A DNA stretch of 64,000 nucleotides from Herbidospora daliensis (lineage in GTDB: Bacteria > Actinomycetota > Actinomycetes > Streptosporangiales > Streptosporangiaceae). Below the pieces are notes generated by a model that saw only the letters and a program-made list of their open reading frames with translations, had not been told where the DNA came from and ran no database searches. The position numbers and the translations under genes are program-made. Below are positions 2,536 through 61,986 of this stretch, piece after piece (position 1 is the stretch's first letter; every line of letters starts with the position of its first letter). Location: the NCBI RefSeq assembly GCF_001570585.1, contig NZ_BBXF01000001.1, forward strand, positions 1,295,691-1,359,690, read 5' to 3'.

Positions 2536-2712
2536 GGTCGGCACCTCCGTCGCGTGCCAGGGTCTCCCACGAGGCACATCTCCATAACTGTATTGAGTAG
2601 CGCAGTGCTGCCCTACATCATCGGCGATGGGCACGCGCGGACGGAAGCCCCGCCCGGCATGCGGTCAACGCATCCTGTCAAAAAAGCGCCACCTCGCGCA
2701 GCAAGATCTGAC

Positions 2713-6072: not shown

Positions 6073-6656
6073 TCCGGCGCGTGGGCGAACACGCCCTGCT
6101 CGTCGAGACGGGCTCCCTGGCCGCCTCCCACCGCCTCGACGCCCGCCTGCGGCTGCTCGTCGACGTGGACGAGATCGTCCCGGGCCCCGAGACGGTGCTG
6201 GTCGTCGGCGGCCGCGCCGACCAGCTGATCCCGCTGATCGAGCAGCTCGACCACGGCCCCGTCCACGACCTCGACGGGGAGACGGTCGAGATCCCGGTCG
6301 TGTACGACGGCGCCGACCTCGCCGACGTCGCGGCGCTGGCGGGGATCTCGGTCGACGAGGTGATCGCCCGGCACACGGGGTCGGAGTTCGTGGCGGGCTG
6401 GCTGGGCTTCGCGCCCGGGTTCGCCTACCTGGTGGGGCTCGACCCCTCGCTGCACGTCTCCCGGCTCGACCGGCCCCGGACCGCCGTGCCGGCCGGGGCG
6501 GTGGCGATCGCGGGGGCGTACTCGGCGGTGTATCCGGCGGCCTCGCCGGGCGGCTGGCGACTGCTCGGGCACACGACACTCCCGGTCTGGGACGTGACCA
6601 GCGACTCCCCTGCCCTGCTGAAGCCGGGCACCCGGGTCAGGATGGTCGCGACGTGA
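6069..6656 (+). CDS. pxpB: 5-oxoprolinase subunit B (KipI family)
   Basis: The 195-aa protein matches the KipI/PxpB allophanate-hydrolase-subunit-1 family. The typical C-terminal core is present: EFVAGWLGFAPGFAYL followed by PRTAVPAGAVAIAG and YPAASPGGWRLLG. It forms a complex with PxpC. The start is the GTG that overlaps the pxpA stop, and it ends by overlapping the next GTG. It is slightly shorter than the usual 210-240 residues, the difference being at the N-terminus. Confidence 0.93.
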   Translation: MIRRVGEHALLVETGSLAASHRLDARLRLLVDVDEIVPGPETVLVVGGRADQLIPLIEQLDHGPVHDLDGETVEIPVVYDGADLADVAALAGISVDEVIARHTGSEFVAGWLGFAPGFAYLVGLDPSLHVSRLDRPRTAVPAGAVAIAGAYSAVYPAASPGGWRLLGHTTLPVWDVTSDSPALLKPGTRVRMVAT

Positions 6657-47610: not shown

Positions 47611-49014
47611 CTAGTGGCTGAAGCGCTGGACGCGGCGCAGCTTGTTCATCGCGTCGAGGGCGGCGACCTTGTAGCACTCCGACAGGGTCGGGTAGTTGAA
47701 GACGGCGTCGACCAGGTAGTCGATGGTGCCGCCGCAGCCCATGACGGCCTGGCCGATGTGCACGAGCTCGGTCGCCTGGGTGCCGAAGACGTGCACGCCC
47801 AGGAGCGTGCGGTCTTCGGGCGAGACCAGCAGCTTGAGCATGCCGTGGGTGTCGCCGATGATCTGGCCCCGGGCCAGTTCGCGGTAGCGCGACAGGCCGG
47901 TCTCGAACGGGATGTGGGCGTCGGTGAGCTCGTCTTCGGTCGCGCCGACGAAGCTGATCTCGGGGATCGTGTAGATGCCGATCGGCTGAAGCCGGCTCAT
48001 GTCGGAGACCGGTTCGTCGCACGCGTGGTAGGCCGCCAGGCGGCCCTGCTCCATGGACGTGGCGGCCAGGGCCGGGAAGCCGATGACGTCGCCGACGGCG
48101 TAGACGTGCGGCACGCCGGTCCGGTAGTGCTCGTCGACCGTGATCCGGCCGCGCGCGTCGGCCTCCAGGCCGGCGGTGTGCAGGGCGAGCGACTCGGTCA
48201 TGCCCTGGCGGCCGGCCGAGTACATGACCGTGGCGGCCGGGATCTTCTTGCCGCTCTCGAGGATCGTGAGGGCGCCGCGCTCGTGGCGTTCGACGGCGGC
48301 GACGGTCTCGCCGAACCGGAACGTGACGGCCAGGTCGCGCAGGTGGTACTTGAGCGCCTCGATGACCTCCAGGTCGCAGAACTCCAGCATGCGGTCGCGG
48401 CGCTCGACCACGGTGACCTTGGTGCCGAGGGCGGCGAACATGGAGGCGTACTCGATGCCGATCACGCCGGCGCCGACCACGACCATCGAGTCGGGCACGT
48501 GGTCGAGCTGGAGGATGCCGTCGGAGTCGATGATCGTGGAGCCGTCGAACTCGACGCTGTCGGGGCGCGCGGGGCGGGTGCCGGTGGCGATAATGATCTT
48601 GTCGGCGGTGACCTTGGTCTCCCGGCCGCGGTCGTCGATCACCGCGATGGTGTGGGGGTCGAGGAAGTGGCCGGAGCCGGTCAGGGTGGTGATGCGGTTG
48701 CGGGAGAGCTGGTTGCGGATCACCTCGACCTCGCGGCCCACGACGTGGGTGGTGCGGGCGGTCAGGTCGGCGATGCCGATCTCTTCCTTGACGCGGTAGT
48801 TGCGGCCGTACATCTCGCGCTGGCTGAGTCCGGTCAGGTAGAGCACGGCCTCGCGCATGGTCTTGGAGGGGATCGTGCCGGTGTTGATGCACACCCCGCC
48901 GATCATGTTGCGCCGCTCGACGATCGCTACGCGGCGCTCCAGCTTGGCGGCCGCGATGGCGGCCTTCTGCCCGCCCGGCCCGGATCCCAGGACGAGTACA
49001 TCAAAGTCGCTCAC
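47611..49014 (-). CDS. sthA: Soluble pyridine nucleotide transhydrogenase (Si-specific)
   Basis: The 467-aa flavoprotein has FAD- and NAD-binding motifs ([12 protein letters not shown] and [19 protein letters not shown]) and the C-terminal dimer domain ([13 protein letters not shown]). The disulfide motif of dihydrolipoamide dehydrogenases is changed to [12 protein letters not shown], with the second cysteine replaced by threonine, as in SthA. It exchanges reducing power between NADPH and NAD+. GTG 49014 gives the right length. AGG lies very close to it and a 7-bp inverted repeat begins 14 bases upstream. Confidence 0.93.
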
Positions 49015-49027
49015 ACCTAGCAGTGTG

Positions 49028-49045
49028 GTCGCTGCGACCAGCGAC
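49028..49045 (-). promoter_or_regulatory. Inverted repeat upstream of sthA
   Basis: GTCGCTG and CAGCGAC form a perfect 7-bp dyad with a 4-base loop, 14-31 bases before the sthA start. It may be an operator or an mRNA hairpin that limits access to the start. The rest of the 159-bp divergent gap shows nothing clear. Confidence 0.4.
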
Positions 49046-49173
49046 GAGAAGACCTTGACCGGCTTCACCGGACAATTGGCCGGGTTGTGCGACGGCGGCA
49101 ACGTGGCGGCCACCATACCGGTGCAATCGGGAGACAAGCAGACATCAAGCGGGCTCCGCCAAGATCTGGCCCC

Positions 49174-49521
49174 ATGTGGAAGGACACCCCTCAGTACCTC
49201 GGCGAACTGCTCATCTGGGAGATCGAGGACTACCTCATCGCCCAGTCACAACGGCCCGAGCGGGCCAAGGTCGCCTTCATCCGGCTGGCCGACGCCTGGG
49301 GCGCCGCCTCGATCGCGGCCGAGCTCGACGACGGCGGCAGCTTCTACTCGGCGGCCAAGCGGGCCGACGCCCTGGGCATGACCCTGCCCGGCGACATGTT
49401 CGGTACGGTGACCCGCGAGCAGATGCCGCACGTCTTCACGGCGGTGCCCGGCACGACGTTCCCGCCGATGCTCGACGGGGACGGGTGGGTCATTGTCCGA
49501 TTGGTCGCTTTCGAATCCTGA
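49174..49521 (+). CDS. Small hypothetical protein
   Basis: The 115-aa soluble protein has no signal or membrane segment. It is acidic, with [39 protein letters not shown] and [14 protein letters not shown] do not recognise a family. ATG 49174 has no ribosome site. An AAGATC sits about 8 bases upstream, so the message might be leaderless. It lies between sthA and the pseudokinase genes and may be unrelated to either. Confidence 0.7.
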
Positions 49522-49587: not shown

Positions 49588-51738
49588 TTGGCAGTGCCAC
49601 AGCCGCTCCGCGATCCCCGCCGGCTCGGCGGCCACACCCTGGTCGGCGCGTATCCGCCGGGCGATCGGTCCGCCTCCTACGAGACGGGCGACGGCGCCCT
49701 GCTGACGCTGTTCCACACCCGCCTGCCCGACCCCGACGCCTTCCTCGAACGCATCGACGAACTCCAGCGCGCGGGCGGCTACCCCTGGCTCTCGCTCCTG
49801 GACGCCGGCACCTCCGGCGGCGAACCCTACGTGGTCGTCGAGAAGGCCGACGGCCGCCACCTCGACGCCGCCCTCCCGGAGAGCGACGCGCAACGCCTGG
49901 CCATCGCCTCGATGACCGGCCTGGCGGGCCTGCACCGCGAGGGCACGGCCCACGGCTCCTTCACCCCGTGGTCGGTCATCCTGACCGGCGCGGGCCCCCG
50001 GCTCGCCCTCCTCGACCTCGACGCCCTGGTGGCACAGGGGGTCACCCGAACCTCGGCCGCCCCTTCCCCGGCCGCCGAGGCAGGCGACCCGGATGCCACG
50101 GCGCGGGTCCCCGGAGGCGGCACCGCGGTGGAGAGGGGCGACCCCGAGGCCACCGCACGTGTCAACGGGCGTGCCGCGGAGACCGACGACCCCGACGCGA
50201 CCGCTCAGGTCGCCGGGCATGAGGCTGCGAGGGCCGCCGAGGCCACTGCTCGGGTCGCCGAAACGGTCGCCACTTGGCCCAAAGGCAAGGCCGAATCGCC
50301 TGGCCTGGGTGATGAGACCCGGCCCATCGGGTCGCTCGCCTATCTGCCGCCCGAGGCGTTACGTTCCGGCGTGCGGCCCCCTGCGCCGCCCGGGGATCTG
50401 TTCGCCTGGGCCGCCGTCATGGTCTTCGCCGCCACCGGGCGGCACGCGTTCGAGCGGGACTCCCCCGCCGCCACCATCAACGCCGTCCTCCACGACGATC
50501 CCGATCTCGGCGGGATGCCCGACGGGCTGGCGGGGGTCGTCGCGGCCTGTCTCGCCAAGGACCCGGGGCAGCGGCCGACGGCCCGCGAGGCGCTCGAACG
50601 GCTGATCGGCGAGACGCAGCTGACCATCGACCGGGCCACGCTCGACGTGGTCGCCACCCTCCCTCCGGCCGAGCCGGCGGAGACGGAACCCGCCGTCGCG
50701 CCGCTCCCCGATCGCCGGGGGCCGCGCTGGGGCGCGCTCACCGCCGCCGCCGTCGCGATCGTGCTGGTCGGCGGGCTGGGCGGGTATCTGCTCGGGGGCA
50801 CCAAGACCGGTGCGGCGGCCACCGCCGCGAACGCCTCCGGGGTGCCCTCCACGTCGGTCAGCACGCTGGCCGCCGTCGACGACCCGGCTCCCCCGCCGCC
50901 CGCCACGGGCGGGTTCACCGCCCCCGGACCGGCGATCGCGCTGAAGGAGAATTCGGCCGACCCGGCCCGGCTCACCGGTTACCGCAGGGGCGCCGACACG
51001 TGGGTCCGGGGCGAGGGCGACGTCTTCACGCGGTTGCCGGGCGCCGACCTCGAACCGGCACGGTCGCCGGGCGGGAAGTGGCTCGCCGCCGTCGGTCCGG
51101 AGACCATCACGTTCACCGGCGCGGGTGAGTCGTTCACGGTCACGCCGGGGGGCGCCTACACCCGGCCGACCTGGTCGCGGGACGGCGCGAAGCTGATGGT
51201 CACGACGACCTCCGGCGACGACGGCCGTCCGGGCGGGTTCGCCGTCGTCGACGTCGCCACGCGGGTGGTCGCCACCGTCGACACCGACGACGAGACGACC
51301 GGCGGGGAAGGGCACTTCGCCTGGTTGCCCGACGGCTCGGGGGTCGTCGTCGGCTACCGGACCGAGACCGAGCACGGGATCAGGTTCCGCGACCTCACCG
51401 GCGACCTGACCAAGTCCTACCACTGGGTGGGCGAGACCTACGGGCGGCGCATGTTCTCGCCGTCCGGGAAGACGTTCGTGACGTTCTGCCCGAGCGGCGG
51501 CACGTACTGCGTCTGGGACACCGCGACCGGGGTGCGGCAGGCGTCGATCGCGCTGTTCTACCCCGACGGCCTCCTGTACGGCTGGTACGACGACGCCCAC
51601 CTGATCGTCGCCGACCCGAGGGAGGACCCGCACCGGATCGTGGCCATGGACCTGCGCGGCCGGCCGCAGCGGGTGCTGGCCGAGATCCCGCCCGAGGACG
51701 ACACGACCGACCTGCTCCTCTACTACACGGGGAACTGA
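49588..51738 (+). CDS. Membrane-anchored pseudokinase with extracellular beta-propeller (first of three)
   Basis: The 716-aa protein has a degenerate Ser/Thr kinase fold (about 14-340), a proline-rich link, one membrane helix (about 382-403) and an extracellular domain with TolB/WD40-like blades (WSRDGAKLMV, WLPDGSGVVV, FSPSGKTFVT). The Gly-rich loop and the VAIK lysine are absent, HRDxKxxN is HGSFTPWS (about 122) and DFG is DLD (about 143), but LPPE replaces APE normally. Between DLD and PPE about 95 residues are inserted, with DPDATARV repeats. TTG 49588 has GGAGGA 5 bases upstream. It should not phosphorylate. It may act as a scaffold or ligand-sensing partner of the third gene. Confidence 0.85.
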   Translation: MAVPQPLRDPRRLGGHTLVGAYPPGDRSASYETGDGALLTLFHTRLPDPDAFLERIDELQRAGGYPWLSLLDAGTSGGEPYVVVEKADGRHLDAALPESDAQRLAIASMTGLAGLHREGTAHGSFTPWSVILTGAGPRLALLDLDALVAQGVTRTSAAPSPAAEAGDPDATARVPGGGTAVERGDPEATARVNGRAAETDDPDATAQVAGHEAARAAEATARVAETVATWPKGKAESPGLGDETRPIGSLAYLPPEALRSGVRPPAPPGDLFAWAAVMVFAATGRHAFERDSPAATINAVLHDDPDLGGMPDGLAGVVAACLAKDPGQRPTAREALERLIGETQLTIDRATLDVVATLPPAEPAETEPAVAPLPDRRGPRWGALTAAAVAIVLVGGLGGYLLGGTKTGAAATAANASGVPSTSVSTLAAVDDPAPPPPATGGFTAPGPAIALKENSADPARLTGYRRGADTWVRGEGDVFTRLPGADLEPARSPGGKWLAAVGPETITFTGAGESFTVTPGGAYTRPTWSRDGAKLMVTTTSGDDGRPGGFAVVDVATRVVATVDTDDETTGGEGHFAWLPDGSGVVVGYRTETEHGIRFRDLTGDLTKSYHWVGETYGRRMFSPSGKTFVTFCPSGGTYCVWDTATGVRQASIALFYPDGLLYGWYDDAHLIVADPREDPHRIVAMDLRGRPQRVLAEIPPEDDTTDLLLYYTGN
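50083..50256 (+). repeat. DPDATARV-type repeats in the pseudokinase activation segment
   Basis: Four copies of D-P-[DE]-A-T-A-[RQ]-V lie at residues about 166, 184, 200 and 216 (the last is AAEATARV), spaced 16-18 residues. At DNA level the copies differ at many third positions. That suggests the peptide rather than the DNA is under constraint. Each offers a Thr next to acidic residues. Confidence 0.7.
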
Positions 51739-51744
51739 ACCCTG

Positions 51745-53655
51745 ATGCCTCCCGTCGAGCCGCTCACCCCGCACGACCCGGCCTCGCTCGGCCCCTATCC
51801 CCTGGTGGGCCGGCTGGGCGGGGACGTCTATCTGGCCACCGCGCCCGGCGGCGAGCAGGTGGCCGCGCGCAAGCTGGCCCGGCCGCTCGACGCGCCCGGA
51901 CGCGAGGCGCTGGCCCGCGTCTGGGAGGCCGCCGCCGTCGGCACGCCGCACATCCTGGACACCGGGCGCGACTACATCGTGTCCGAGTACGTGCCGGGCC
52001 CGAACCTGGCCGAGGAGATCGCCGAGCGCGGCGCGCTGGCCGGGCCCGCGCTGCACCGGCTCGCCGTCGCCACGGCGACGGCGCTGGCCTCCCTGCACCG
52101 GGCCGGGCTCACCCACGACGCCATCGCGCCCGAACGGGTGCTGCTCGGGCCCGACGGGCCCCGGCTCATCGGGGCCGAACGGCCGGTCACGCCCGCCTGG
52201 CGGGCCGACGACTCCCGCGAGCTCTGGCAGGACCCCGACGAGCCGCCCGGCCCGGCGGCCGACGTGTTCGCGTGGGCGGCGGTCATCGCGTTCGCGGCGA
52301 CGGGGCGGCCGCCGTTCGGGGAGAACCCGACGCGCGTCTCGTACGGGGCGGCCGACCTCGGGCCGCTCTCCGGCGCGCTGCGCGATCTGGTCGCCGACTG
52401 TCTCGCCGACGAACCGGCCGCCCGGCCGGGGGCCGAGGAGACGCTGCTCCGGCTGCTCGGCCACGCGGGGGCGCTCGACACGATGCTGCCGGCGACCGCG
52501 CCACGGGCCGTCGTGGCGCCTCAGGTGGGCGTGAGCCGTACAGTCCCGGAAAAGCGGAGGAGGGGCGGCGCGGTCGCCCTCGCGGCGGGCGGGCTGGCGC
52601 TGGCGCTGGTGTCCGGCGCGGGAGGGTACCTGCTCGCGCCCGCCCCGGCGCCGCAGGCGCGCAAGGCGGCGCCGAGCGCCGCGCCGACCGCGCGACCGGC
52701 CGCCTTCCCCTCGCCGGGGGCCTCGCCGCTGGCCCTGGCCGGCGGGGTGCTGAACGAGCGGCCGGGCGATCCGCTGCGGCTGGCCTCCTACCGGGCCAGC
52801 GTGTCGGACGGCGCGACGGCCGCGTTCGCGCGCAGCCGCGACGGCGCGGGCTTCGACCGGACCGGCGGCGACAACCACGTCTCGGTCGTCTCGCCCGACG
52901 GCCGCTGGACGGCCACGATCGACGAGCTGTTCGTGGCGAGCACCGACCGGCTGTCGGTCGAGTTCACCGAGCGGGGCAGCGGCCGGCGGTTCACCGTGCC
53001 GACCGTCGCCGCGCCGCTGAGCGCGCACCATCCGGCCTGGTCGCCCGACGGGACCCGGCTGCTGCTGTCGCTCTGGGTCAGCCAGGGCGCGACCGACGTG
53101 GTGCCCTTCGGGTTCGTGGTCGTCGACCCCGCCACCCGCGCCGCCACCGTCGTGGAGACCGCCAACGACGCCGACCGCGACGCGTTCCTGGCCGCCGACC
53201 CCGAGGTGCGGCTCGGCGCGCTTCCCGCCTTCCGGTGGACGCCCGACGGGCGCGAGGTCGCCACCGCCTACCTGACCCCCGAGGGCCGGTTCGGCGTGCG
53301 CTTCCACGACCTGACCGGACGGGTCGTGCGCGGCTTCCACTGGGTCGGGCTCCCGGCCGGCACGTCGTGGTTCTCCCCCGACGGCAGCTCGTTCGTGACG
53401 ACGCAGTGCGAGAAACGGCACGTCTTCTGCGTCTGGGACACCGCGACCGGCGCGCGGCGCGGCGGCGTGCCCTCGGAGAAGGGCGACGGCATGCTCGGCT
53501 GGTTCGACGCCACCCACCTGCTCTTCTCGCGGGAGGAGAAGGGCGAGTACCGCGCCGACGTGATCGACTTCGCCGGCGAGACCACCCGGACCCTGGTCGA
53601 GCTCGACCTGCCCGGCGACGACCCCCTCGTGCAGTTGTTCTTCCTGCGGAGCTGA
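51745..53655 (+). CDS. Membrane-anchored pseudokinase with extracellular beta-propeller (second of three)
   Basis: The 636-aa protein has the same plan: kinase-like domain (1-245), membrane helix (about 275-297) and propeller-like extracellular part (VSPDGRWTATI, WSPDGTRLLLSL, WTPDGREVATAY, FSPDGSSFVTT). A lysine remains where the ATP lysine should be (VAARKLAR), but the catalytic loop reads THDAIAPER (about 123), without the Asp, Lys and Asn, DFG is GAE (about 143) and APE is lost. It begins 6 bases after the first gene's stop. The C-lobe stretch PAADVFAWAAVIAFAATG is shared with both neighbours, which marks the three as duplicates. Confidence 0.85.
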   Translation: MPPVEPLTPHDPASLGPYPLVGRLGGDVYLATAPGGEQVAARKLARPLDAPGREALARVWEAAAVGTPHILDTGRDYIVSEYVPGPNLAEEIAERGALAGPALHRLAVATATALASLHRAGLTHDAIAPERVLLGPDGPRLIGAERPVTPAWRADDSRELWQDPDEPPGPAADVFAWAAVIAFAATGRPPFGENPTRVSYGAADLGPLSGALRDLVADCLADEPAARPGAEETLLRLLGHAGALDTMLPATAPRAVVAPQVGVSRTVPEKRRRGGAVALAAGGLALALVSGAGGYLLAPAPAPQARKAAPSAAPTARPAAFPSPGASPLALAGGVLNERPGDPLRLASYRASVSDGATAAFARSRDGAGFDRTGGDNHVSVVSPDGRWTATIDELFVASTDRLSVEFTERGSGRRFTVPTVAAPLSAHHPAWSPDGTRLLLSLWVSQGATDVVPFGFVVVDPATRAATVVETANDADRDAFLAADPEVRLGALPAFRWTPDGREVATAYLTPEGRFGVRFHDLTGRVVRGFHWVGLPAGTSWFSPDGSSFVTTQCEKRHVFCVWDTATGARRGGVPSEKGDGMLGWFDATHLLFSREEKGEYRADVIDFAGETTRTLVELDLPGDDPLVQLFFLRS

Positions 53656-53659
53656 CCCC

Positions 53660-55324
53660 GTGGAGGGCACCCGGCTGGGCGGCTACACGATCCTGCGGAC
53701 CCTGGGGGCCGGCGGTCAGGGCACCGTCTACCTGGCCTCGGCTCCCGACGGCGGGCGGGTCGCGGTGAAGGTGCTGCACGCGGTGCCGGAGGACGGCTCG
53801 GCCGAGCGGTTCCTGCGGGAGGCCGAGGTGCTGCCGGAGGTGGCCTCGTTCTGCGCGGCGCAGGTGCTCGGGTTCGGGGTGGCGGACGGGGTGCCGTACA
53901 TCGCCAGCGAATACGTCGAAGGGCCGACGCTCCAGGCCCTGGTCAGGGAGCGCGGGCCGCTGACCGGGGGCGCGCTGCGGTCGGTGGCGGTCGGCACGAT
54001 CACCGCGTTGTCGGCCGTCCACCGGGCCGGGGTGGTGCACCTCGACTTCAAGCCCGCGAACGTGATCCTCGGCCGCGACGGCCCCCGGGTGATCGACTTC
54101 GGCATCGCGCGGGCGGTGGACGCCGAGGCGACCGGGACCGGCGCGGTCGGAACTCCGACCTATATGGCGCCGGAGCAGCTCGGCGAGTCGCCGCCCGGCC
54201 CCGCGGCCGACGTGTTCGCGTGGGCGTCGACGGTGGTGTTCGCGGCCTCGGGGACGCCGCCGTTCGGGGCCGACTCGGTGCCGGCGGTGCTGAACCGGCT
54301 GCTGCGCGGGCAACCCGACCTCGGTCCGCTGACCGGGGACCTGCGGGAGGTGGTCGCGGCCTGCCTGGTCAAGGATCCGCTCGCCCGGCCCGCCTCCTCC
54401 GACGTGCTGCTGCGGCTGCTCGGTCGGGCGCCGGCGGCCTCGCGGCCGATCGGGCGGCGGGTCGTGGTCGCGGGGGCGGCGCTGGCCGTCGCCGCCGCGG
54501 CGGCCGGGGTGGCGGTGTGGGCGTCGCGGCCCGAGCCGTTGCGGACGTCCGGGCCGCCGTCGGCGGCCTTCACCTCCATGCGGGTGGCCGAGTTGCCCGG
54601 CAGCCTTCACGAGCACGCGTCCGATCCGGTGCGGCTGACGTCGTTCAGCGTCAGCGGGTCGGCCGTGAGCATCCGGTCGTATGTGCGCTCGCGCGACGTC
54701 TTCACGCCGATCGAACGGCAACGCCATCCGGTCGTGTCGCCTGACGGGACCACGTTGGCGGAGGTCAACTGGGTGCCGCTGCGGGCGTCCGACGGGAACG
54801 TGGTGACCTTCACGCGCGACGGGTCCGTCTTCACGGTGCCGACGGTGGAACCGCCGTTGGCCGTGCGCTCGCCGGTCTGGTCCCGGGACGGGGGCCGGGT
54901 GCTGCTGACGGTGTCATCCGAGGCGGAGCGGGCGGGTTTCGTGCTCGTGGACGTCGCCTCGCGGCGCTCGACCTACGTCGCCGTGGCGTCGGCGGAGACG
55001 GACTTCGGGTTCGGGCCCGGGGCGACGGTGACGTCGGGTGGGGTCGTGTACAGGGTGGACGGAGCTCCGATGCGGACCTACGAGGGGATGTCCAGCCTGG
55101 TCTTCTCGCCCTCGGGGCGGCGCTATGCGGGGGCCTGCGCGTCGGGCGTCTGCGGTCCCGGCCCTCTCCGGACGTCGGGCGAGGTGATCGGCTGGTTCAA
55201 CGAGGACACGCTGATCGTCCGCGACGGGCGCAGGGTCCTCACGGTGGACGCGACCAGCGGCGCCACCGGGCGAACCCTCGCCGACCTCGACTCGGACCAG
55301 GAGACGATCCTGCACTTCTCCTGA
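53660..55324 (+). CDS. Active Ser/Thr protein kinase with extracellular beta-propeller (third of three)
   Basis: The 554-aa protein keeps a full catalytic set: GAGGQGTVYLA loop (about 16-26), ATP lysine 37 (VAVKVL), VHLDFKPANV with Asp 129, Lys 131 and Asn 134, DFG (146-148), and GTPTYMAPE (about 164-172). Only the Arg of HRD is changed, to Leu, as in some actinobacterial kinases. A membrane helix (about 268-288) leads to the extracellular propeller-like part. GTG 53660 lies 4 bases after the second pseudokinase, with GGAG 8 bases upstream. The three genes are surely one operon, with this one as the working kinase. Confidence 0.92.
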   Translation: MEGTRLGGYTILRTLGAGGQGTVYLASAPDGGRVAVKVLHAVPEDGSAERFLREAEVLPEVASFCAAQVLGFGVADGVPYIASEYVEGPTLQALVRERGPLTGGALRSVAVGTITALSAVHRAGVVHLDFKPANVILGRDGPRVIDFGIARAVDAEATGTGAVGTPTYMAPEQLGESPPGPAADVFAWASTVVFAASGTPPFGADSVPAVLNRLLRGQPDLGPLTGDLREVVAACLVKDPLARPASSDVLLRLLGRAPAASRPIGRRVVVAGAALAVAAAAAGVAVWASRPEPLRTSGPPSAAFTSMRVAELPGSLHEHASDPVRLTSFSVSGSAVSIRSYVRSRDVFTPIERQRHPVVSPDGTTLAEVNWVPLRASDGNVVTFTRDGSVFTVPTVEPPLAVRSPVWSRDGGRVLLTVSSEAERAGFVLVDVASRRSTYVAVASAETDFGFGPGATVTSGGVVYRVDGAPMRTYEGMSSLVFSPSGRRYAGACASGVCGPGPLRTSGEVIGWFNEDTLIVRDGRRVLTVDATSGATGRTLADLDSDQETILHFS

Positions 55325-55377
55325 TCGGCCGGCGGCCGGTCCTGGGCGATCAGGCCGGTGATCGCCCAGGGGTTCGC

Positions 55378-55617
55378 TCAGGCCATGACTCGGTCGACGA
55401 TCTCCGAGGCGCCCATCGAACGGGCGCAGTGGGCGCCGCAGAACCACTTGCGGTCGGCTTCCACGCCGTGGCCGATGATGCGGCAGCCGCAGTGTTCGCA
55501 GATCGGCGCCATCCTGGTGATCGCGCACTCGAAGCTGTCGAAGGTGTGGACGGCCCCCTGGGCGTGCACCTCGAACGTCATGTCGTAGTCGTTTCCGCAT
55601 ACTTCGCAAGCGGCCAT
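55378..55617 (-). CDS. Small zinc-ribbon protein, prokaryotic-metallothionein-like
   Basis: The 79-aa protein has CEVCGND at the start, FECAI in the middle, then CEHCGCRIIGHGVE and FCGAHCARSMG. That gives nine cysteines and several histidines, enough for at least two zinc sites. It matches a small actinobacterial family that is often annotated as prokaryotic metallothionein. The function is not established. The ATG has GGGGGGAA 3 bases away as ribosome site, and that site is one arm of a 16-bp hairpin. It lies between the convergent kinase blocks, 54 bases from the plus-strand kinase stop. Confidence 0.85.
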   Translation of the reverse strand: MAACEVCGNDYDMTFEVHAQGAVHTFDSFECAITRMAPICEHCGCRIIGHGVEADRKWFCGAHCARSMGASEIVDRVMA

Positions 55618-55619
55618 GA

Positions 55620-55662
55620 TTCCCCCCGGATAGGTCGTTAGGGCTTACCTACCCAGGGGGAA
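55620..55662 (-). promoter_or_regulatory. Hairpin that covers the ribosome site of the zinc-ribbon gene
   Basis: In the minus-strand transcript TTCCCCCTGGGTAGGT pairs with ACCTATCCGGGGGGAA across an 11-base loop. All 16 positions pair if two G-U wobbles are allowed. The 3' arm contains the only ribosome site of the zinc-ribbon gene, 3 bases before its ATG. The hairpin also starts 5 bases after the stop of the 1151-aa gene, so it may instead, or also, end that transcript. Confidence 0.7.
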
Positions 55663-55667
55663 ACCGG

Positions 55668-58600
55668 CTACAGCGTCGCGAGCAGGCCCTTCGCCATCTC
55701 CTTGGCCCCGGCGGCGGCCTCCGGCAGGGCCATCAGCACCGCCCCGGTGTTGTTGATCTCCGTCCCGGCCGGGCGGTCGGCGCCGCCGAACAGGACCGTC
55801 ACGACGAACGTGTCCTGCATGACCTTGACCTCGTACGCGCCGCTGTAGGCGGTCTCGGTCTGCTGCCTGATCGCCTGGCCGTAGTTGTCGGTGCCCAGGC
55901 CCGGGATCTTCTGGATCTTGCTCCACTGGATGCCGCCGATCTTCGACCCGGCCGTGCCCCGGCTCTTGCCGCGCTCGTCGACCAGGTAGAAGCGGGCCAT
56001 CTCGGCGTTCGGGAACTCCCGGATGCCGATCCGCAGGTTCCGCCAGCGCACCTTGCCGCCCTCGACCGGCATGGCGTCGTTCCACCACTGACACTCGGTC
56101 AGCTTCGCCTTGCCCTCCGTGAGCGACTGCGCCAGCCCCTCCGTCTGGGGCACCAGCTTCGCGGCCGTGGCGTTCATCGCGACGCAGTTCGGCGGCAGCG
56201 CGATCTTGACCGGCGACGGGCTCGCCGTCGGGGTCGGGCTCGGGCGGGCCTTGCCCGCGAACGGGAGCGGCTTCTTGGCGTACCAGGCCTCGGCCGACTG
56301 GGCCAGCTGGGTCAGCAGCGCCTTGACCTCGCGGATCGCGTTCTCCTCGGTGATCGACTGCTTGGTGTCGTTCGTGAGGACGTTCGCCTCCTTGTGCTGC
56401 TGGCTCGCTTCGTACTTGACGTCGAAGGTGATGTTGCCGACCCGGCCCATGCCGGTGCCGAAGGCGTAGCGGTAGTCGTCCTCCCGCGTCCACTGGTACT
56501 GGGCGACCGCGGCCTGGCCGATGCCGGTGAACACGGCCGGCTTGGAGTAGTAGCGCTCCTCGTTGGAGACCGAGGCGGTGTAGTCGTACTGGCGCTTCTC
56601 GCCGTCGAACTGGATCGAGGCCGCCTTGTCGGCGGTGGTGTCGCCGATGGCCTCGTACCGGGCGACGTTGACGGTGATCTGCCGCTGGCGGTTGAACTCG
56701 CCGAACGAGATGTTGCGGTTGGTCCACTCGCAGGTCCAGCGGACGTAGCTGACCAGGTTGCCGTCACGCTCGTCCGACATCCGCATGTCGATCTTGGCGG
56801 CCGGGACCAGCCGCTCGGTCTGCTCCGGGTCGAGCATCGCGCAGACGTCGAAGTCGGTCCCCTTCGCGCCGTCGCCAGCCGCCGGAGGAGCCGCGCCCGA
56901 CGCCTCGGGCGTGGCCCCCGCCTTCGGCGGCGGCGGTGTCTGCGGGGTCTCCTCGCCGGTCGTCTGGAAGAAGACGAACGTGCCGCCCGCCACGACCAGG
57001 ACCACCACGGCCGCGATCAGCGGCCAGAGCCACTTGTTCCTGGACGGCGGCCCGGGAGGCTGCGCCCACCCGGGCTGCGTGGTGCCCTGCCACGGACCGG
57101 AGTTCTGCTGCTGCCACCCGCTCTGCGCCTGCCACGGGTCGCCGCCCCCGCTCGGGGCGCCGTTGGCCTGCGGCTGGAACAACACCGCCGTGCCCTCGGG
57201 CCCCGCCTGGTTCTGCGGGGCCTGCGGGTTCCAGGGACCCTGCGGGGGCTGCTCGGCGTCCGCCGGGCCACGCCAGCGCTCACTGCCCCGGGGGACGTGA
57301 CCGTGCGGGCCGGGGGGTTCGGGGGTGCTCGGCGTCTGCGGAGGCCAGGCGGTTCCGTCGGACGGGGTGGACCAGGCCGACCCCGGCGCGGTCAGGCCGG
57401 AGGACTCCTGCCGCGACTCGGGCGACGGGGCTTCGGTCCCGGGCCACTTGGCGGTGGGGGAACCCTCCGTGCCGGGCCAGGGGGCGTCGCTCTTCGACTC
57501 GGCCCCGGGCCACTGCGGGGAGTCCGCCGGAGGCCGCTGCGGGCCCGAGGCGGACTCGGCACCCGGCCACTGCGCACCGCCCTGAGCTTCGGAACCAGGC
57601 CACTGCGAGCCGCCGGAACTCTCGGCACCGAATCGCTGCGGGCCGGATGCGGGCTCCGAGCCGGGCCACTGCGCACCGCCTGGATTGTCCGCACCGGATC
57701 GCTGGGGGCCCGACGTGGATTCCACCCCAGGCCACTGCGGGCCGGTCGATCCCTCCGCGCCAAGTCGCTGCGGGCCAGACGTGGATTCCACCCCAGGCCA
57801 CTGGGGGCCGGTGGGACCGTCCCCGCTGAACGGCTGCGGGCCGGAGGGGAACTCCGAGCCGGGCCACTGGGGACCGCTCGGGCCCTCCGCGCCCAGCCGC
57901 TGCGGGCCGGACGTGGATTCCGGGCCGGGCCACGGCGCACCGCCCGGCGCGTCGGCGCCGAAGCGCTGGGGGCTCGACGGTGATTCGGGGGCGGGCCACT
58001 GCGGGCCGGGGCCGCCGAAGGCGGGAGGCGGGGTCGCTGGTGCGGACTGGCGGGGGTCGGCGGGGGGCTCCGGCATGCCGGGCCAGTCGGGTCCGGCCGA
58101 GGGCCACGGCTGGGGCGGGTTCGGGGGCTGCGGGGGGCGGTTGGAGCCGAAGGCGTCGAAGCCCTGGCTGGGGCCGGCGGGCGGAGCCGGGGGCTGGCCG
58201 GGGCGTCGGCCCGCGCCGGGGCCGTCGGCGATCGGGGAGACGCCATTCGCGCCGGGTGCGTGCCGGTCGGAGGGGCCGTGGGGCACCGGGCCGCCGCCGC
58301 GTCCGGGGGCGTCCGGGCGCTTGAAGTCGCGGAAATCGGAGCGGCCCTCGGGCGGGCCCTCCGAGACGGGGGCGCCGAACATCGCGGGCGGGCGGAGCTG
58401 GTTCGGCGGGCCCTCGGGGGTCTGGGGCTTTCGGGACTGGCTGGCCGGGGTGTCGAACCAGCCCGGGCGGTCAGACGGCGGAGACGACGGGGTCGACGAC
58501 TGCCTCGTCGATGACTTCGGGATCCGCCGGGGCAACTCGGAGGCGCTCTCCCGTAACCGCGTGGTCGCCGGGTCGACGCCACCGGGGTCGCCGCCCTGCG

Positions 58601-59123
58601 GCGCGGCGGGCGGCTCACCGGAGCGGGCGGCCGCGTCACCACCCGGACGCGCGGCCGCGTCGCCGCCGGGACGCTTGGCCGTGTCATCGCCGCCCAGCCG
58701 CCTCGTCGCGTCGTCACCCGGGCGCTTGGGCGCATCATCACCCGGGCGGTTGGCCGAGTCGTCGGGGGTGGCGGCGGGCGGCTGGTCGAGGTCGTGGAGC
58801 ATGGTGCCGAACGGGTCCGGGTCGTCCGGGTTCGGGCCGGGCGGGGGTTGCGGAGCCACAGGGTCCTCGGTGCGCCAGGAGGCCACTCTCGTCGGGTCGC
58901 CGATCCGGGGGGGTTCGCCCGGACGGCGGACGAACGGCAGGCTCGGGCCGGTCGTCTTCGGGATCTCGCCCGTGGCCGGGTCGTCCTCGTCGTAGGCGTG
59001 GGGGCGCGAATCCCGTACCGGAGAACCGAAGGCCTCGCCCGGCGGGTCAGCCGGCGGGGTGTCCTCCGGGGGCGGGGGGACCGCACGCAGGTGGTTCCGG
59101 GGCTTCTGGGGGTCTTCGGACAT
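55668..59123 (-). CDS. 1151-aa membrane protein: proline-rich repeat tail, one membrane helix, two extracellular two-cysteine domains
   Basis: Residues 1-690 are disordered and rich in Pro, Gly, Ser and Asp. They hold a short-unit repeat zone (RPGDDA type, about 120-170) and a long zone of 22-residue units (about 374-568). One membrane helix follows (about 695-718, WPLIAAVVVLVVAGGTFVFF). The outer part has two related domains. The first opens FDVCAMLDPEQTERLVP and has CEWTN, the second opens NCVAMNATAAKLVP and has CQWWND, and the pattern resembles DUF3558. The same domain ends the two kinases just upstream. The long inner tail could be a kinase substrate or scaffold. It is 15 bases downstream of the nearer kinase gene. 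Confidence 0.85.
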   Translation of the reverse strand: MSEDPQKPRNHLRAVPPPPEDTPPADPPGEAFGSPVRDSRPHAYDEDDPATGEIPKTTGPSLPFVRRPGEPPRIGDPTRVASWRTEDPVAPQPPPGPNPDDPDPFGTMLHDLDQPPAATPDDSANRPGDDAPKRPGDDATRRLGGDDTAKRPGGDAAARPGGDAAARSGEPPAAPQGGDPGGVDPATTRLRESASELPRRIPKSSTRQSSTPSSPPSDRPGWFDTPASQSRKPQTPEGPPNQLRPPAMFGAPVSEGPPEGRSDFRDFKRPDAPGRGGGPVPHGPSDRHAPGANGVSPIADGPGAGRRPGQPPAPPAGPSQGFDAFGSNRPPQPPNPPQPWPSAGPDWPGMPEPPADPRQSAPATPPPAFGGPGPQWPAPESPSSPQRFGADAPGGAPWPGPESTSGPQRLGAEGPSGPQWPGSEFPSGPQPFSGDGPTGPQWPGVESTSGPQRLGAEGSTGPQWPGVESTSGPQRSGADNPGGAQWPGSEPASGPQRFGAESSGGSQWPGSEAQGGAQWPGAESASGPQRPPADSPQWPGAESKSDAPWPGTEGSPTAKWPGTEAPSPESRQESSGLTAPGSAWSTPSDGTAWPPQTPSTPEPPGPHGHVPRGSERWRGPADAEQPPQGPWNPQAPQNQAGPEGTAVLFQPQANGAPSGGGDPWQAQSGWQQQNSGPWQGTTQPGWAQPPGPPSRNKWLWPLIAAVVVLVVAGGTFVFFQTTGEETPQTPPPPKAGATPEASGAAPPAAGDGAKGTDFDVCAMLDPEQTERLVPAAKIDMRMSDERDGNLVSYVRWTCEWTNRNISFGEFNRQRQITVNVARYEAIGDTTADKAASIQFDGEKRQYDYTASVSNEERYYSKPAVFTGIGQAAVAQYQWTREDDYRYAFGTGMGRVGNITFDVKYEASQQHKEANVLTNDTKQSITEENAIREVKALLTQLAQSAEAWYAKKPLPFAGKARPSPTPTASPSPVKIALPPNCVAMNATAAKLVPQTEGLAQSLTEGKAKLTECQWWNDAMPVEGGKVRWRNLRIGIREFPNAEMARFYLVDERGKSRGTAGSKIGGIQWSKIQKIPGLGTDNYGQAIRQQTETAYSGAYEVKVMQDTFVVTVLFGGADRPAGTEINNTGAVLMALPEAAAGAKEMAKGLLATL
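57420..58004 (-). repeat. 66-bp tandem repeats in the proline-rich tail
   Basis: Six full 22-codon units run without gaps from 58004 to 57609, each of the form PQWPGxExxSGPQRxGAxxxxG. Shorter units follow (33, 57, 33, 33 and 33 bases) and reuse the same WPG(A/T/S)E core. Units 4 and 5 are nearly the same over their first two thirds, which points to recent duplication. All lengths are multiples of three. Confidence 0.9.
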
Positions 59124-59138
59124 GGGGGGACTCCTTGG

Positions 59139-60410
59139 TCAGCCGATTCCGGCCGCGACCAGCTGGGCGGCCTGGCGGGCGCGCTCCCTGGTGTCGTCGC
59201 CGGGCGACTTGTAGGTGACCTGGGCGGACAGGTTGCTTCTCCGGAACCAGACGGTGGCGCCGCCGTCGGCGGGCGCGACATAGGCCTCGTCGGCGACGCC
59301 GGTGAGGTTCTCGGCGCCGTCGGGGCGGGCGGGGGCGGCTCCGGTGGTCAGGCGGTAGCCCACGACCACTTCGGTGCCGCCGGAGCGGTTGATCCAGCGG
59401 CAGCCGCCGTCGGGCGTGGGTTCGGCGTTGGCCTGGGTGCCGAGCAGGCGGGTGATCTGCGCGGTGGTCAGCGACGTGCAGGCGTCGGGGGCGGCGGTGA
59501 AGCGGGCCGGTACGTCGTCCGGTCCGGCCGCGAACTGGGAGGCGGCCCAGCCCGCGCCGACGCCCAGGCCGATCGTGAGGGCGGCCCCGACCGCCCAGCG
59601 GCCGGTCCGGCGCGAGCGCGGGGGCACCGCGGCGACGGCGTCTCTGAGCAGGTGGCGGGTGGTCGCGGCGGGCGGGCGGTGGGCGGGGTCCTTGGCCAGC
59701 AGCGCGCCGACCGCGCGGGCCAGCGCGGGGGTGGCCTGCGCCATCGGGGGCGGGTCGTGCATGACGACGGCCGCGACCACGGCGGCGGGCAGGTTGCGGT
59801 GGAAGGGGCCGCGGCCCTCCACGGCCGCGTAGAGGGTCGCGCCGAGCGACCACAGGTCCGAGGGCGGGCCGGCGGGCAGGCCGCGGAAACGTTCGGGGGC
59901 CATGTACGCCGGCGACCCCGAGCTGTCGGCCGGGTCGGCCCCGAACGGCGCGGCGATGCCGAAGTCGGCCAGCATGGCCCGGCCGTCGTCGCCGACGAGC
60001 ACGTTGGCCGGTTTCACGTCGCGGTGCAGGATGCCGTGGGCGTGCGCGAGTTCGAGGGCGTCGAGGATCGACAGGCCGATCTCGGCGACGCGGGTGCTCG
60101 GCAGCGGCAGCAGCTTGTCGAGGGAGGTTCCCGGCACCAGGTCCATCACGATCCACGGCGCGCCGTCATGCGGCACCACGTCGTGGATCTTGACGATCGA
60201 AGGGTGGTTGAGCCGCCCGGCCGCGCGCGCCTCGCCGATCGCCCGGGAGGTGTATTCGGCCAGCTCACCGGGGCCGAGGCCGGTGGGCGTGCGCATCTGC
60301 TTGACCGCGACCTCACGCCGCAGCAGTTCGTCGTGGGCGCGCCAGACGGTGCCCGCGCCGCCCTCTCCGAGGGGTTCGGCGAGCCGGTAGCGGCCGGCGA
60401 GCAGGGTCAC
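59139..60410 (-). CDS. Ser/Thr protein kinase with extracellular two-cysteine domain
   Basis: The 423-aa kinase has GEGGAGTVWRA (about 15-25), Lys 37, HRDVKPANV (about 129), DFG (149-151) and SPAYMAPE (about 166). A membrane helix (about 271-290) precedes an outer domain of about 115 residues with DACTSLTTAQITRLLG and GGCRWIN. GTG 60410 overlaps the upstream kinase stop (GTGA). A GTG four codons earlier is also open. The gene order kinase-kinase-1151-aa protein on one strand, with matching outer domains, suggests one signalling unit. Confidence 0.93.
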   Translation of the reverse strand: MTLLAGRYRLAEPLGEGGAGTVWRAHDELLRREVAVKQMRTPTGLGPGELAEYTSRAIGEARAAGRLNHPSIVKIHDVVPHDGAPWIVMDLVPGTSLDKLLPLPSTRVAEIGLSILDALELAHAHGILHRDVKPANVLVGDDGRAMLADFGIAAPFGADPADSSGSPAYMAPERFRGLPAGPPSDLWSLGATLYAAVEGRGPFHRNLPAAVVAAVVMHDPPPMAQATPALARAVGALLAKDPAHRPPAATTRHLLRDAVAAVPPRSRRTGRWAVGAALTIGLGVGAGWAASQFAAGPDDVPARFTAAPDACTSLTTAQITRLLGTQANAEPTPDGGCRWINRSGGTEVVVGYRLTTGAAPARPDGAENLTGVADEAYVAPADGGATVWFRRSNLSAQVTYKSPGDDTRERARQAAQLVAAGIG

Positions 60411-61903
60411 GCGTGACCCCACAGCGTGTCGGCCGCGGCGCGGGCGGCGGTCTCGGCGCCCTGGCGGAGCTGGTCGGGGGTGCGGTCGCCCAGGTCGGCG
60501 TACTCGACGCGGCCGACGAAGTCGCCGACGCGGAAGTAGACGTCGACGGCGATCATCCGGTCGTCGGACGAGGTGACGTCCCAGGCGAACGCCTCCTCGC
60601 CGACGCCGTCGAGCGGGCGGATCGCGGAGGTGACGGTGGGGATGCGGCGCTTGGTGCCGATCTCGTACCAGACGAGGGAGGAGTCACGGGGCATGTTGGC
60701 GATGCGGCGCTTGATGCCGCCGTACAGGGAACGGGCCGCTTCGGGGTCGAGGTCCCACCAGTTCGGGGTGTCGGAGTCGGTGGTGGGTTCGAGGCGCAGG
60801 CCGGTGCCCTCGACCGTCCACTGGCAGCCGCCTTCGATCTCCTTGGGCCGGGCGTCCTGCCCGAGCAGCGCTTTGACCTGGCCGGCGGAGACGACCCGGC
60901 ATAAGTCGACCTTCTCGGTGAACTCCGGCGCGGGCGGCCGCCGCGCGGCGGGGGTGGCCGCGCCGCCGGACTCCCACGGCGCGACGACGACCACGGCCGC
61001 CGCGACGACGGCCGCGACCCCGGCGGCCACGGCGACCCACAGGCCGTTGGTCTTCTTCCGGCGTACCGGCGCGATGTCGGGGTTGCCGCCCCGGACGATC
61101 TCCTGGAACAGCCGTCCGGCGGTCGCGGAGTCGGGCCGGTCGGCCGGGTCGCGCGCCATCAGCCAGCTGACCAGGGTGCCCAGCGGCCCGCCGACCCTCG
61201 GCGCGGGCACCGGCTCGGTCAGCGTCGCCTGGATGACCTGCACGTGGCTGCCCCGGTACGGCGGCACGCCCTCCAGCGCGGTGTAGAGGGTCGCCCCGAG
61301 CGACCACAGGTCGGCGGCCGGGCCGCCGGGGTCGCCTTCGAGCCGTTCGGGCGCGATGAAGCCCGGGGAGCCGATCAGCATGCCGTCGCCGGTCAGGTTG
61401 GTCGTGTCGGCCTGCCGGGCGATGCCGAAGTCGGTCAGCACGACCCGCCCGTCGACGGTGAGGAACACGTTCCCGGGTTTGACGTCGCGGTGCTGCACGC
61501 CGTGGGCGTGCGCGGCCGACAGCGCGTCGACCATCCGGGCCCCGATCTCGGCCACCGCACCGGGCTGCAGCCCGCCGTGGGCGGAGATCTCCGCCGACAG
61601 CGGCCGTCCGTTGAGGCGCTCCATGACGATCCAGGGACGGCCGTCCTCGACCAGGACGTCGTGCACGCTGACGACGGCCGGGTGCCGCAACCGTGCGGTC
61701 ACCTCGGCCTCGCGCATCACGCGGATGACGAGCTCCGCCCGCTCCCGCTCCCCCATCCCGTCGGGAACCCGCAGTTCCTTGACGGCGACCTCGCGGTCGA
61801 GCATCTCGTCACGGGCGAGCCAGACGGTGCCCATGCCGCCGGAGCCGAGGGGGCGCAGCAGGAGGTAGCGGGAGGCCAGTCGTTCCCCGATCGATTCGGC
61901 CAT
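60407..61903 (-). CDS. Ser/Thr protein kinase with extracellular two-cysteine domain
   Basis: The 498-aa kinase has GSGGMGTVWLA (about 20-30), Lys 42, HRDVKPGNV (about 138), DFG (158-160) and SPGFIAPE (about 179). A membrane helix (about 286-308) leads to an outer domain of about 180 residues with VDLCRVVSAGQVKALLG and GGCQWTVEG. No ribosome site precedes ATG 61903, but TATTCT ends 6 bases upstream, so translation is probably leaderless. It is the first gene of the minus-strand signalling operon. Confidence 0.93.
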   Translation of the reverse strand: MAESIGERLASRYLLLRPLGSGGMGTVWLARDEMLDREVAVKELRVPDGMGERERAELVIRVMREAEVTARLRHPAVVSVHDVLVEDGRPWIVMERLNGRPLSAEISAHGGLQPGAVAEIGARMVDALSAAHAHGVQHRDVKPGNVFLTVDGRVVLTDFGIARQADTTNLTGDGMLIGSPGFIAPERLEGDPGGPAADLWSLGATLYTALEGVPPYRGSHVQVIQATLTEPVPAPRVGGPLGTLVSWLMARDPADRPDSATAGRLFQEIVRGGNPDIAPVRRKKTNGLWVAVAAGVAAVVAAAVVVVAPWESGGAATPAARRPPAPEFTEKVDLCRVVSAGQVKALLGQDARPKEIEGGCQWTVEGTGLRLEPTTDSDTPNWWDLDPEAARSLYGGIKRRIANMPRDSSLVWYEIGTKRRIPTVTSAIRPLDGVGEEAFAWDVTSSDDRMIAVDVYFRVGDFVGRVEYADLGDRTPDQLRQGAETAARAAADTLWGHA

Positions 61904-61909
61904 ACCGGG

Positions 61910-61915
61910 AGAATA
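61910..61915 (-). promoter_or_regulatory. Candidate -10 of the kinase operon (leaderless)
   Basis: TATTCT on the minus strand lies 6 bases before the kinase ATG, the place expected for a leaderless promoter. A good -35 at 17 bases is lacking. Just upstream, TTGAC and GTCAA form a short dyad near 61937-61952 that could be a regulator site. The remaining bases to 61986 show nothing else. Confidence 0.35.
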
Positions 61916-61986
61916 GCGAAACCGGACCGGCCCGAATTGACCATTCGTCAATGCGGGCCCAGCTTCCGGGCCGCGACCGGCGGCTC

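Follow-up and report, generated by a model that had tools for sequence, protein, structure and literature searches.

Can a bacterium steer a live receptor kinase through relatives that have lost their catalytic residues? The question is raised by a kinase-rich island in a 64,000-nucleotide stretch (the window) of the 8.5 Mb genome of Herbidospora daliensis. Three genes lying head to tail with intergenic gaps of 6 and 4 bases (PK1, PK2, and K3) encode paralogous receptor-like proteins. Facing them on the opposite strand are a zinc-ribbon gene (ZnR), a gene for a long proline-rich membrane protein (SC), and two kinase genes (K5 and K6) that overlap as called. All seven genes lie where an initial annotation of the window had placed them, in agreement with the open reading frames (ORFs); its coordinates also held, apart from the upper limit of K6, which on this minus-strand gene is a TTG start at 61951, 61903 being an internal ATG. 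That annotation had proposed that PK1 and PK2 are catalytically dead receptors steering the active K3. Throughout, "dead" denotes a protein with at least one of four catalytic residues missing, and "live" one with all four present. We report that a dead receptor gene followed by its live paralogue is a recurrent cassette in the family to which Herbidospora belongs, and we weigh what the dead partner may do.

Catalytic residues are lost in PK1 and PK2 and kept in K3

Against the Pfam Pkinase profile (PF00069, curated cut-off 31.7 bits), PK1 and PK2 scored only 23.9 and 27.2 bits, while K3, K5, and K6 scored 122.4, 141.3, and 146.6 bits. Taking an active kinase to combine a score above this cut-off with the Lys, Asp, Asn, and DFG residues, K3, K5, and K6 show both features and PK1 and PK2 fail. 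Alignment with the live kinases located the losses. In PK1, the beta3 Lys is lost, HRD reads HGS, the Asn is Ser, and a DLD lies near the DFG position, an ambiguous placing that may mean the DFG Asp is kept. In PK2, Lys is replaced by Arg, HRD by HDA, Asn by Arg, and DFG by GAE; furthermore, its glycine loop is four residues shorter and its activation segment comprises 9 residues. These losses, read in the same way in the initial annotation, are the same or equivalent in all seven Herbidospora genomes (e.g., HGA for HGS, and HGA or HDG for HDA). K3 had been called intact, which is right for the Lys, Asp, Asn, and DFG of all six orthologues but not for HRD, which reads HLD (non-RD) in each of them. 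K5 and K6 carry the canonical residue at each of these positions.

As a control, we examined five other kinase clusters of the source genome, in which 12 of 12 kinases were live, two of them forming a divergent pair (L237) and not a tandem. Outside clusters, two weak kinase matches of this genome (G000) were flagged dead, L239, whose Lys region was unaligned, and L241. The latter (G000:C2:494500-499000, approximately 1551-3185, plus strand) is a degenerate pseudokinase of a type different from PK1 and PK2, with HLNLTPN at the HRD stretch and GVG for DFG, and no second kinase was found within the 4.5 kb examined. L238 and L240 of the same genome contain kinase-like stretches (FCDLHPNN or FGDLHPNN), and presumably resemble LanKC-type lanthionine synthetases. 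A defence role was considered and rejected: the PADLOC matches concerned kinase domains (PD-T4-6, mad6, and similar entries), and none fell in SC.

Dead and live paralogues recur in a fixed order

A profile of the dead proteins was run against 150 family genomes, with approximately 8 candidates scored per genome; the resulting counts are lower bounds. The 73 regions fetched and the window (74 in total) contained 127 full-length kinase-propeller proteins, 56 dead and 71 live. Two full-length rows (G050:C42 and G072:C1) were left out, and a second pair in G005 (L143) and a lone G005 gene stand outside the counts. The residue table is confined to matches covering both profile ends, which leaves aside, among others, the gene between the other two in L102 and, at a contig end, a partial gene of L098, and it contains no K5 or K6 rows. 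Genome and genus lists were compiled by hand.

Among the junctions in these regions, 39 ran from dead to live, 12 from dead to dead, and 2 from live to live, and none ran from live to dead. Dead-live pairs made up 28 regions and dead-dead-live triples 11, with one dead-dead region (L031, from the species without K3). The others comprised four lone dead genes (L085 at a contig end, L043, L096, and L120), 28 lone live genes, and two live-live regions. As the dead-plus-live proposal would have it, a live paralogue lies downstream in 39 of the 44 regions holding a dead propeller receptor. It follows directly in 38; in L102 one gene intervenes, which was unclassed since its N-lobe was unmatched. 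Gaps between dead and live genes were within approximately 50 bases in 38 of 39 cases, an approximate figure measured from profile-trimmed starts.

The 39 dead-live loci come from at least 27 genomes and at least 12 genera, all of one family (Herbidospora, Acrocarpospora, Nonomuraea, Planobispora, and kin). They are not independent, since 11 of them belong to Herbidospora; the source genome itself has a second dead-live pair (L037), which lies on a different contig. When 296 genomes from across the class were sampled, with up to 4 candidates scored per genome and E <= 1e-70, every full-length match listed belonged to this family.

The dead receptors are ancient and under purifying selection

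A tree was built from ectodomains alone because decay of kinase motifs then cannot draw the dead rows together. It gathered 54 of the 56 dead proteins into a single group, with a Shimodaira-Hasegawa-like approximate likelihood ratio test (SH-aLRT) support of 91 in a quick search, and the dead/live label changed 3 times on it, compared with 41.6 times in shuffles. Live partners formed two further groups, one of 13 rows from triples and one of 27 rows from pairs (one being the dead L043). The live gene of L104 stood separate, and 31 unpaired live kinases lay apart, together with L120. Repeated independent origins of dead receptors were rejected on this tree, which has one main dead group plus L043 and L120. 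The dead proteins of the main group thus share a common, ancient origin and have been maintained long-term.

Selection gave a consistent picture. The median ratio of nonsynonymous to synonymous substitution rates (dN/dS) of the kinase-like part in Herbidospora was 0.243 for PK1 and 0.183 for PK2, compared with 0.158, 0.172, and 0.081 for K3, K6, and K5; linkers including the membrane helix ranged from 0.38 to 0.54. The kinase-like parts of PK1 and PK2 are under purifying selection, PK2 being constrained approximately like K3 and PK1 somewhat less. One could read the many lost catalytic residues as a sign that PK1 and PK2 are decaying duplicates turning into pseudogenes, but we consider this extremely improbable and discarded it. 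The frames are open in 7/7 Herbidospora genomes, dN/dS of the kinase-like parts is 0.18-0.24, the dead group spans 12 genera, and purifying selection contradicts decay.

The shared ectodomain is predicted to be a beta-propeller

The plan of kinase fold, membrane helix, and propeller that the initial annotation gave for PK1, PK2, and K3 holds, the propeller being predicted from profile matches and from model strands of PK2. The AlphaFold2 model of PK2 (56 rows) had a mean predicted local distance difference test score (pLDDT) of 80.2 and approximately 24 strands in its outer half. In Foldseek its best match was PknB (6i2p, E 7.3e-11), by way of the kinase half, and kinases filled the whole-model list. 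A profile of 14 ectodomains matched WRAP-T proteins first, which we take to be engineered propellers, followed by PkwA (5yzv, E 1.4e-10, spanning approximately 100 of 304 profile positions), TolB, and WDR5. PD40 was detected in 6 of the 14 members, and a Cys pair is invariant in 14/14.

Activation segments differ between dead, paired live, and unpaired live proteins

Positions in the activation segment were numbered back from the conserved G-T, with G at -4. Class labels were assigned by hand, L104 and L124 being taken as live and L085 as dead pair members. Every unpaired live kinase carries Thr or Ser at -9 (31/31), 22 of the 31 have a hydroxyl at both -11 and -9, and 2 have an acid within -8 to -6. 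In the source genome, the PknB-like kinase has Thr at -11 and -9, presumably the autophosphorylation sites of PknB, and Thr or Ser occupies -9 in 9 of 11 parsed control kinases of the other clusters. By contrast with the unpaired kinases, only 4 of the 27 live pair members carry Thr at -9 (3 have Ser there) and 26 show an acid somewhere between -8 and -6, and live triple members have no Thr at -9 (0/13; Ser in 5). The dead pair members, on the other hand, show Thr-Arg at -8/-7 in 26/26 and Val at -5 (Thr +3) in 25/26.

In PK1 the segment ranges from 32 to 111 residues among seven orthologues, six of which contain DPDATARV-like copies (four in the window, none in L035). Counting as acidic-TxxV sites those with an acid at most 4 residues upstream and V, I, or L at +3, cytosolic PK1 has 6, five of them in the activation segment (against a mean of 2.29 in shuffled sequences, 37 of 2000 reaching that number). 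Cytosolic SC has 4 (mean 0.53; 4 of 2000 as high), and K3, K5, and K6 have 1, 0, and 2. These sites resemble the logo of PknA-dependent sites in Mycobacterium tuberculosis as given in the excerpted text of PMC7164672 (acidic residues at -1 and -3 to -6, Pro at +2, and Leu or Val at +3) in their upstream acid and the Leu/Val at +3.

How dead receptors may act on a live kinase

We lean, if only slightly, towards the reading that the dead receptors serve the live kinase encoded in the same operon-like run as non-catalytic subunits with allosteric and phospho-acceptor roles. An old duplication of a kinase-membrane helix-propeller protein would have given two lines, one of which lost catalysis while the other kept it, both staying in one run with the dead gene first. 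The dead propellers would read a cell-surface cue, and the dead kinase-fold domains would contact and regulate the live partner, K3 being the sole enzyme of the cassette. The enlarged activation segment of PK1, with its repeated acidic-T-x-x-V sites, may be a phospho-acceptor and docking array for K3 or another kinase. K6, K5, and SC make up a second, separate conserved module, which comprises two live kinases plus a Pro-rich membrane protein, their outer domains being related.

The HLD motif of K3 and its missing -9 Thr fit a partner-switched kinase better than one activated by loop autophosphorylation, without amounting to proof, and the acceptor role may have moved from the live to the dead partner. 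A more specific form of the model, which we offer tentatively as possible rather than probable, follows a HER3-like principle. One or two dead propeller receptors would allosterically activate a live partner lacking canonical loop autophosphorylation (non-RD in Herbidospora, acid-looped in pairs), and the acceptor role would have passed to the TRxV segment of the dead protein, multiplied into the PK1 docking array in Herbidospora.

The main reading draws on the fixed gene order, the single dead group, purifying selection, the parallel divergence of linked partners, the all-live control clusters, the differences between activation segments, and the precedent of MviN, described below. Several observations weigh against control of a live kinase by its dead neighbours. 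One Herbidospora genome (G001) has open PK1 and PK2 genes but no K3 orthologue; its best K3 match has 44% identity over residues 6-452, and the region contains no N. L096 belongs to the dead clade, and its 10 kb region yielded no second kinase. A live neighbour is thus not strictly required, and the dead proteins of G001 and L096 must either work with different kinases or be in the course of being lost. The dN/dS of G001 pairs (0.27-0.36 for PK1 and 0.22-0.37 for PK2, compared with 0.21-0.34 and 0.17-0.41 for other pairs) is uninformative on relaxation. Two lone dead genes, L043 and L120, fall outside the dead group, and the dN/dS of the PK1 kinase-like part is approximately 1.5 times that of K3. 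Distances among dead proteins and among their linked live partners correlate strongly over 25 pairs (r 0.90 for the kinase part and 0.93 for the ectodomain; 0.83 and 0.79 after thinning to 14 pairs, with 0 of 5000 permutations as high), a result expected from linkage and shared species history that indicates joint inheritance and not binding.

The loop evidence is also mixed. Of the 13 triple-type live kinases, among which K3 is counted, a single one has an acid within -8 to -6, and a Thr one position off is kept in 13/13 triple-type (at -10) and 13/27 pair-type live kinases. K5, K6, and two of the 11 parsed control kinases likewise lack the -9 Thr. On the tree, the Thr-to-acid change amounts to one event or a few, and PK2 has no acidic-TxxV site.

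Given these exceptions, the dead receptors might instead be free-standing phospho-scaffolds or decoys, their adjacency a relic of tandem duplication and their real partners K5 and K6 or PknA and PknB. The persistence of PK1 and PK2 without K3 in G001, the solitary L096, and the excess over shuffles of PknA-like acidic-TxxV sites in cytosolic PK1 and SC (compared with the excerpted PMC7164672) would suit such a role. We nevertheless regard it as rather unlikely. The dead-to-live order holds without exception in 39 junctions, dead genes are paired in 12 genera, and tandem history alone does not predict long retention of both genes.

Nor is it self-evident that all dead proteins are inert. Many pair-type dead proteins retain the HxD Asp, or the DFG Asp or an Asn at its place, and residual activity is possible there; furthermore, ATP binding was predicted for an ActPs2 model even with its Lys changed to Arg (excerpted text of PMC12599244). 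Continued catalysis, as ATP binding or transfer with rearranged residues, is nonetheless improbable: PK1 and PK2 both lack the Lys, catalytic Asp, and Asn, and PK2 has also lost DFG and has a shortened glycine loop and an activation segment of 9 residues. Apart from these proteins, three propeller kinases (L132, L210, and L212) have Ser replacing the Lys two positions past the HRD Asp (HRDLSATN, HRDLSPGN), possibly early stages of catalytic loss.

The island consists of two separately conserved modules

The initial annotation had joined all seven genes in one membrane complex and had made synteny the test, to count against it if the genes scattered independently. Within Herbidospora the synteny is there: the block is kept in 7/7 genomes, with the exceptions that G001 lacks K3 and the contig of G004 ends inside K5, and it is also present in records of Herbidospora galbida and H. 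solisilvae. Across other genera, however, the search returned two separate clusters. Matches to the SC ectodomain occurred in 40 of 150 family genomes (weak in two of these), spread over 16 of 68 genera, and the K6-K5-SC order was kept in 8 of 9 regions fetched, the contig of the ninth (L244) beginning with the SC open frame. In L250 (G079), one of the eight, the SC outer part is found twice in tandem (6213-8827), beside K6 and a K5-like kinase without a K5 outer-domain match above 50 bits.

The dead-live loci fetched from outside Herbidospora showed no SC, K5, or K6 outer-domain match in flanks of approximately 2 to 10 kb. In the single-contig genomes G060 and G157, SC is present and none of the scored candidates is a full-length propeller kinase; G053, again one contig, contains a dead-live pair and lacks an SC match. 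The island is two separately conserved modules, PK1-PK2-K3 and K6-K5-SC, seen together only in Herbidospora. A single receptor complex of all seven genes, for which the syntenic Herbidospora block speaks, is therefore very improbable, and we set it aside: the modules were never found together in the other genera examined, and since the cassette sits in a conserved locus, co-location within Herbidospora is weak evidence for one complex.

ZnR, which had been counted as part of the set, is better explained as a landmark. It was matched in 87 of 150 family genomes, with a single match in 84 of the 87, and often in genomes without an SC match; widespread and mostly single-copy, it was rejected as a component and is probably not part of the system. 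ZnR adjoins SC in G049, G126, G080, G157, G060, G055, and others, and it lies next to the dead-live cassettes of five other genera (G015, G050, G053/G148, G085, and G119/G140). A gene for a Si-specific NAD(P) transhydrogenase (STH) lies at 47611-49521 of the window, and also in L040, L081, L103, L245, and L246; it neighbours either module and is accompanied in some by U144, a 144-residue, weakly peptidyl-prolyl-isomerase-like gene. G080 reads K6-K5-SC-ZnR-U144-STH (STH partly matched), with 87 bases from ZnR to U144, a gap that is 3.3 kb in G100; in Herbidospora, PK1-PK2-K3 sits exactly between ZnR and U144-STH. The recurrence of STH and U144 beside the modules suggests an old chromosomal junction.

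A two-cysteine outer domain had been ascribed to K5, K6, and SC alike. Comparison with hhalign bore out the kinship of K5 and K6 (probability 99.5%) and found the domain twice in SC (96.3% between its two copies), while the kinship of SC to the kinases is weak. SC domain 1 matched K5 at 69.7% (E 5.3e-6) and K6 at 55.3%, and SC domain 2 matched them at 15.1% and 11.2%. Scores against DUF3558 (PF12079) were 21.5 bits for K6 (E 0.00025), 17.0 bits for K5 (E 0.0061), and 16.7 bits for the SC ectodomain, all below the cut-off of 34.1 bits; the three are likely remote kin of that family, judging from these profiles. AlphaFold2 gave no usable fold for the SC ectodomain (mean pLDDT 29.4 from 3 rows), and the membrane helix of K5 is weak by hydropathy (best 19-residue mean 1.42). 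The Pro-rich cytosolic part of SC carries a repeat array of the WPG...SGPQ kind. Features of the island are collected in Table 1.

Table 1 Features of the kinase island, in window coordinates
Feature	Position	Strand	Basis
PK1, pseudokinase-membrane helix-propeller receptor, first dead gene of the cassette	49588..51738	+	ORF
PK1 activation segment, four DPDATARV-like copies and DETRPIG, 111 residues in total	50083..50328	+	Sequence
PK1 membrane helix	50728..50802	+	Hydropathy
PK1 ectodomain, predicted beta-propeller	50863..51735	+	Alignment and profile matches
PK2, pseudokinase-membrane helix-propeller receptor, second dead gene	51745..53655	+	ORF
PK2 membrane helix	52564..52635	+	Hydropathy
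PK2 ectodomain, predicted beta-propeller of approximately 24 strands, invariant Cys pair	52732..53652	+	Model, alignment, profile
K3, live kinase-membrane helix-propeller, third cassette gene, HLD variant	53660..55324	+	ORF, Pkinase
K3 membrane helix	54449..54526	+	Hydropathy
ZnR, zinc-ribbon protein, metallothionein-like	55378..55617	-	PF02069 E 0.0011, below cut-off
SC, long Pro-rich cytosolic part, membrane helix, two related outer domains	55668..59123	-	ORF, hhalign, hydropathy
SC outer domain 1	56244..56873	-	hhalign
SC outer domain 2	55671..56213	-	hhalign
K5, live kinase, DUF3558-like outer domain at 59142-59522	59139..60422	-	Pkinase; DUF3558 below cut-off
K6, live kinase, DUF3558-like outer domain at 60410-60985	60407..61951	-	TTG start; Pkinase; DUF3558 below cut-off

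Relation to known kinases and pseudokinases

Among NCBIfam models, AfsK of Streptomyces was the best match of PK1, PK2, and K3, with 41.9, 64.8, and 180.2 bits against the AfsK equivalog (NF053615), far below its cut-off of 1300 bits. AfsK is a live kinase followed by a membrane part and an outer repeat domain, and mycobacterial MviN (MurJ) is a pseudokinase that is not known to have a propeller. PkwA of Thermomonospora curvata joins a kinase to a WD40 domain, as in the plan of the cassette, and no dead partner is noted for it in the excerpted literature listing (PMC6113231). The MviN-PknB-FhaA system (ActPs3 family) is similar in that an actinobacterial membrane pseudokinase is phosphorylated by an active Ser/Thr kinase, PknB, and then recruits the FHA protein FhaA, which reads it (excerpts of PMC12599244 and PMC6180346). 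Unlike PK1 and PK2, MviN is fused to a flippase, and its operon account in the excerpted PMC12599244 names no kinase paralogue.

Bacterial pseudokinases have already been catalogued, although hardly any functions are assigned to them. A 2025 review, which calls them largely unexplored experimentally, describes three actinobacterial families (ActPs1-3) with losses in all three motifs, of which ActPs2 and ActPs3 have a membrane helix after the kinase-like domain, as do PK1 and PK2 (PMC12599244, of which the excerpted text is used here and below). ActPs2 is marked by beta3 Lys to Arg, HRD Asp to Asn, a DFG deletion, and an activation-loop insertion of approximately 250 residues in approximately 90% of members; PK2 has the Arg and lacks DFG, but has Asp to Ala and a 9-residue segment, and PK1 has neither that Arg nor the Asn, and its segment is 111 residues. 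ActPs3 combines loss of all motifs, an activation-loop deletion, and a membrane helix after the kinase, a description that PK2 fits, while the loop of PK1 is expanded instead. In ActPs1, three residues are lost, the G-helix is missing in approximately 60%, and a C-terminal PQQ_2 domain is common. PK2 shows these losses, the DFG Asp of PK1 is ambiguous, and the outer domains match PD40/WD40, with no PQQ family among the Pfam matches. Judged by these described hallmarks, PK1 and PK2 together appear to fit none of the three families. The words propeller, WD40, tandem, and gene neighborhood were not found in the excerpted text, and no kinase paralogue is mentioned where it comments on the operons of MviN, CP1, and DLHK members.

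What appears to be new here is the recurrent dead-live receptor-kinase cassette; among titles and abstract starts of the open PubMed Central literature, we found no bacterial dead/live receptor kinase pair. In the animal pairs HER3/HER2 and JAK JH2/JH1, the dead kinase domain switches its live relative on or holds it in check, and HER3 is also a phospho-docking platform. These are eukaryotic Tyr kinases, and the likeness would be one of working principle, with no homology beyond the kinase fold. With that qualification, the cassette looks like a bacterial counterpart of receptor systems in which a dead kinase helps a live one. The 39 natural dead-live loci, mostly of one descent and in one gene order, come with live-only relatives as controls, and they make it testable whether bacteria switch live kinases through dead receptor kinases, as animals do. 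The natural exceptions, i.e., the loss of K3 in one species and a lone dead gene in another genus, provide built-in tests.

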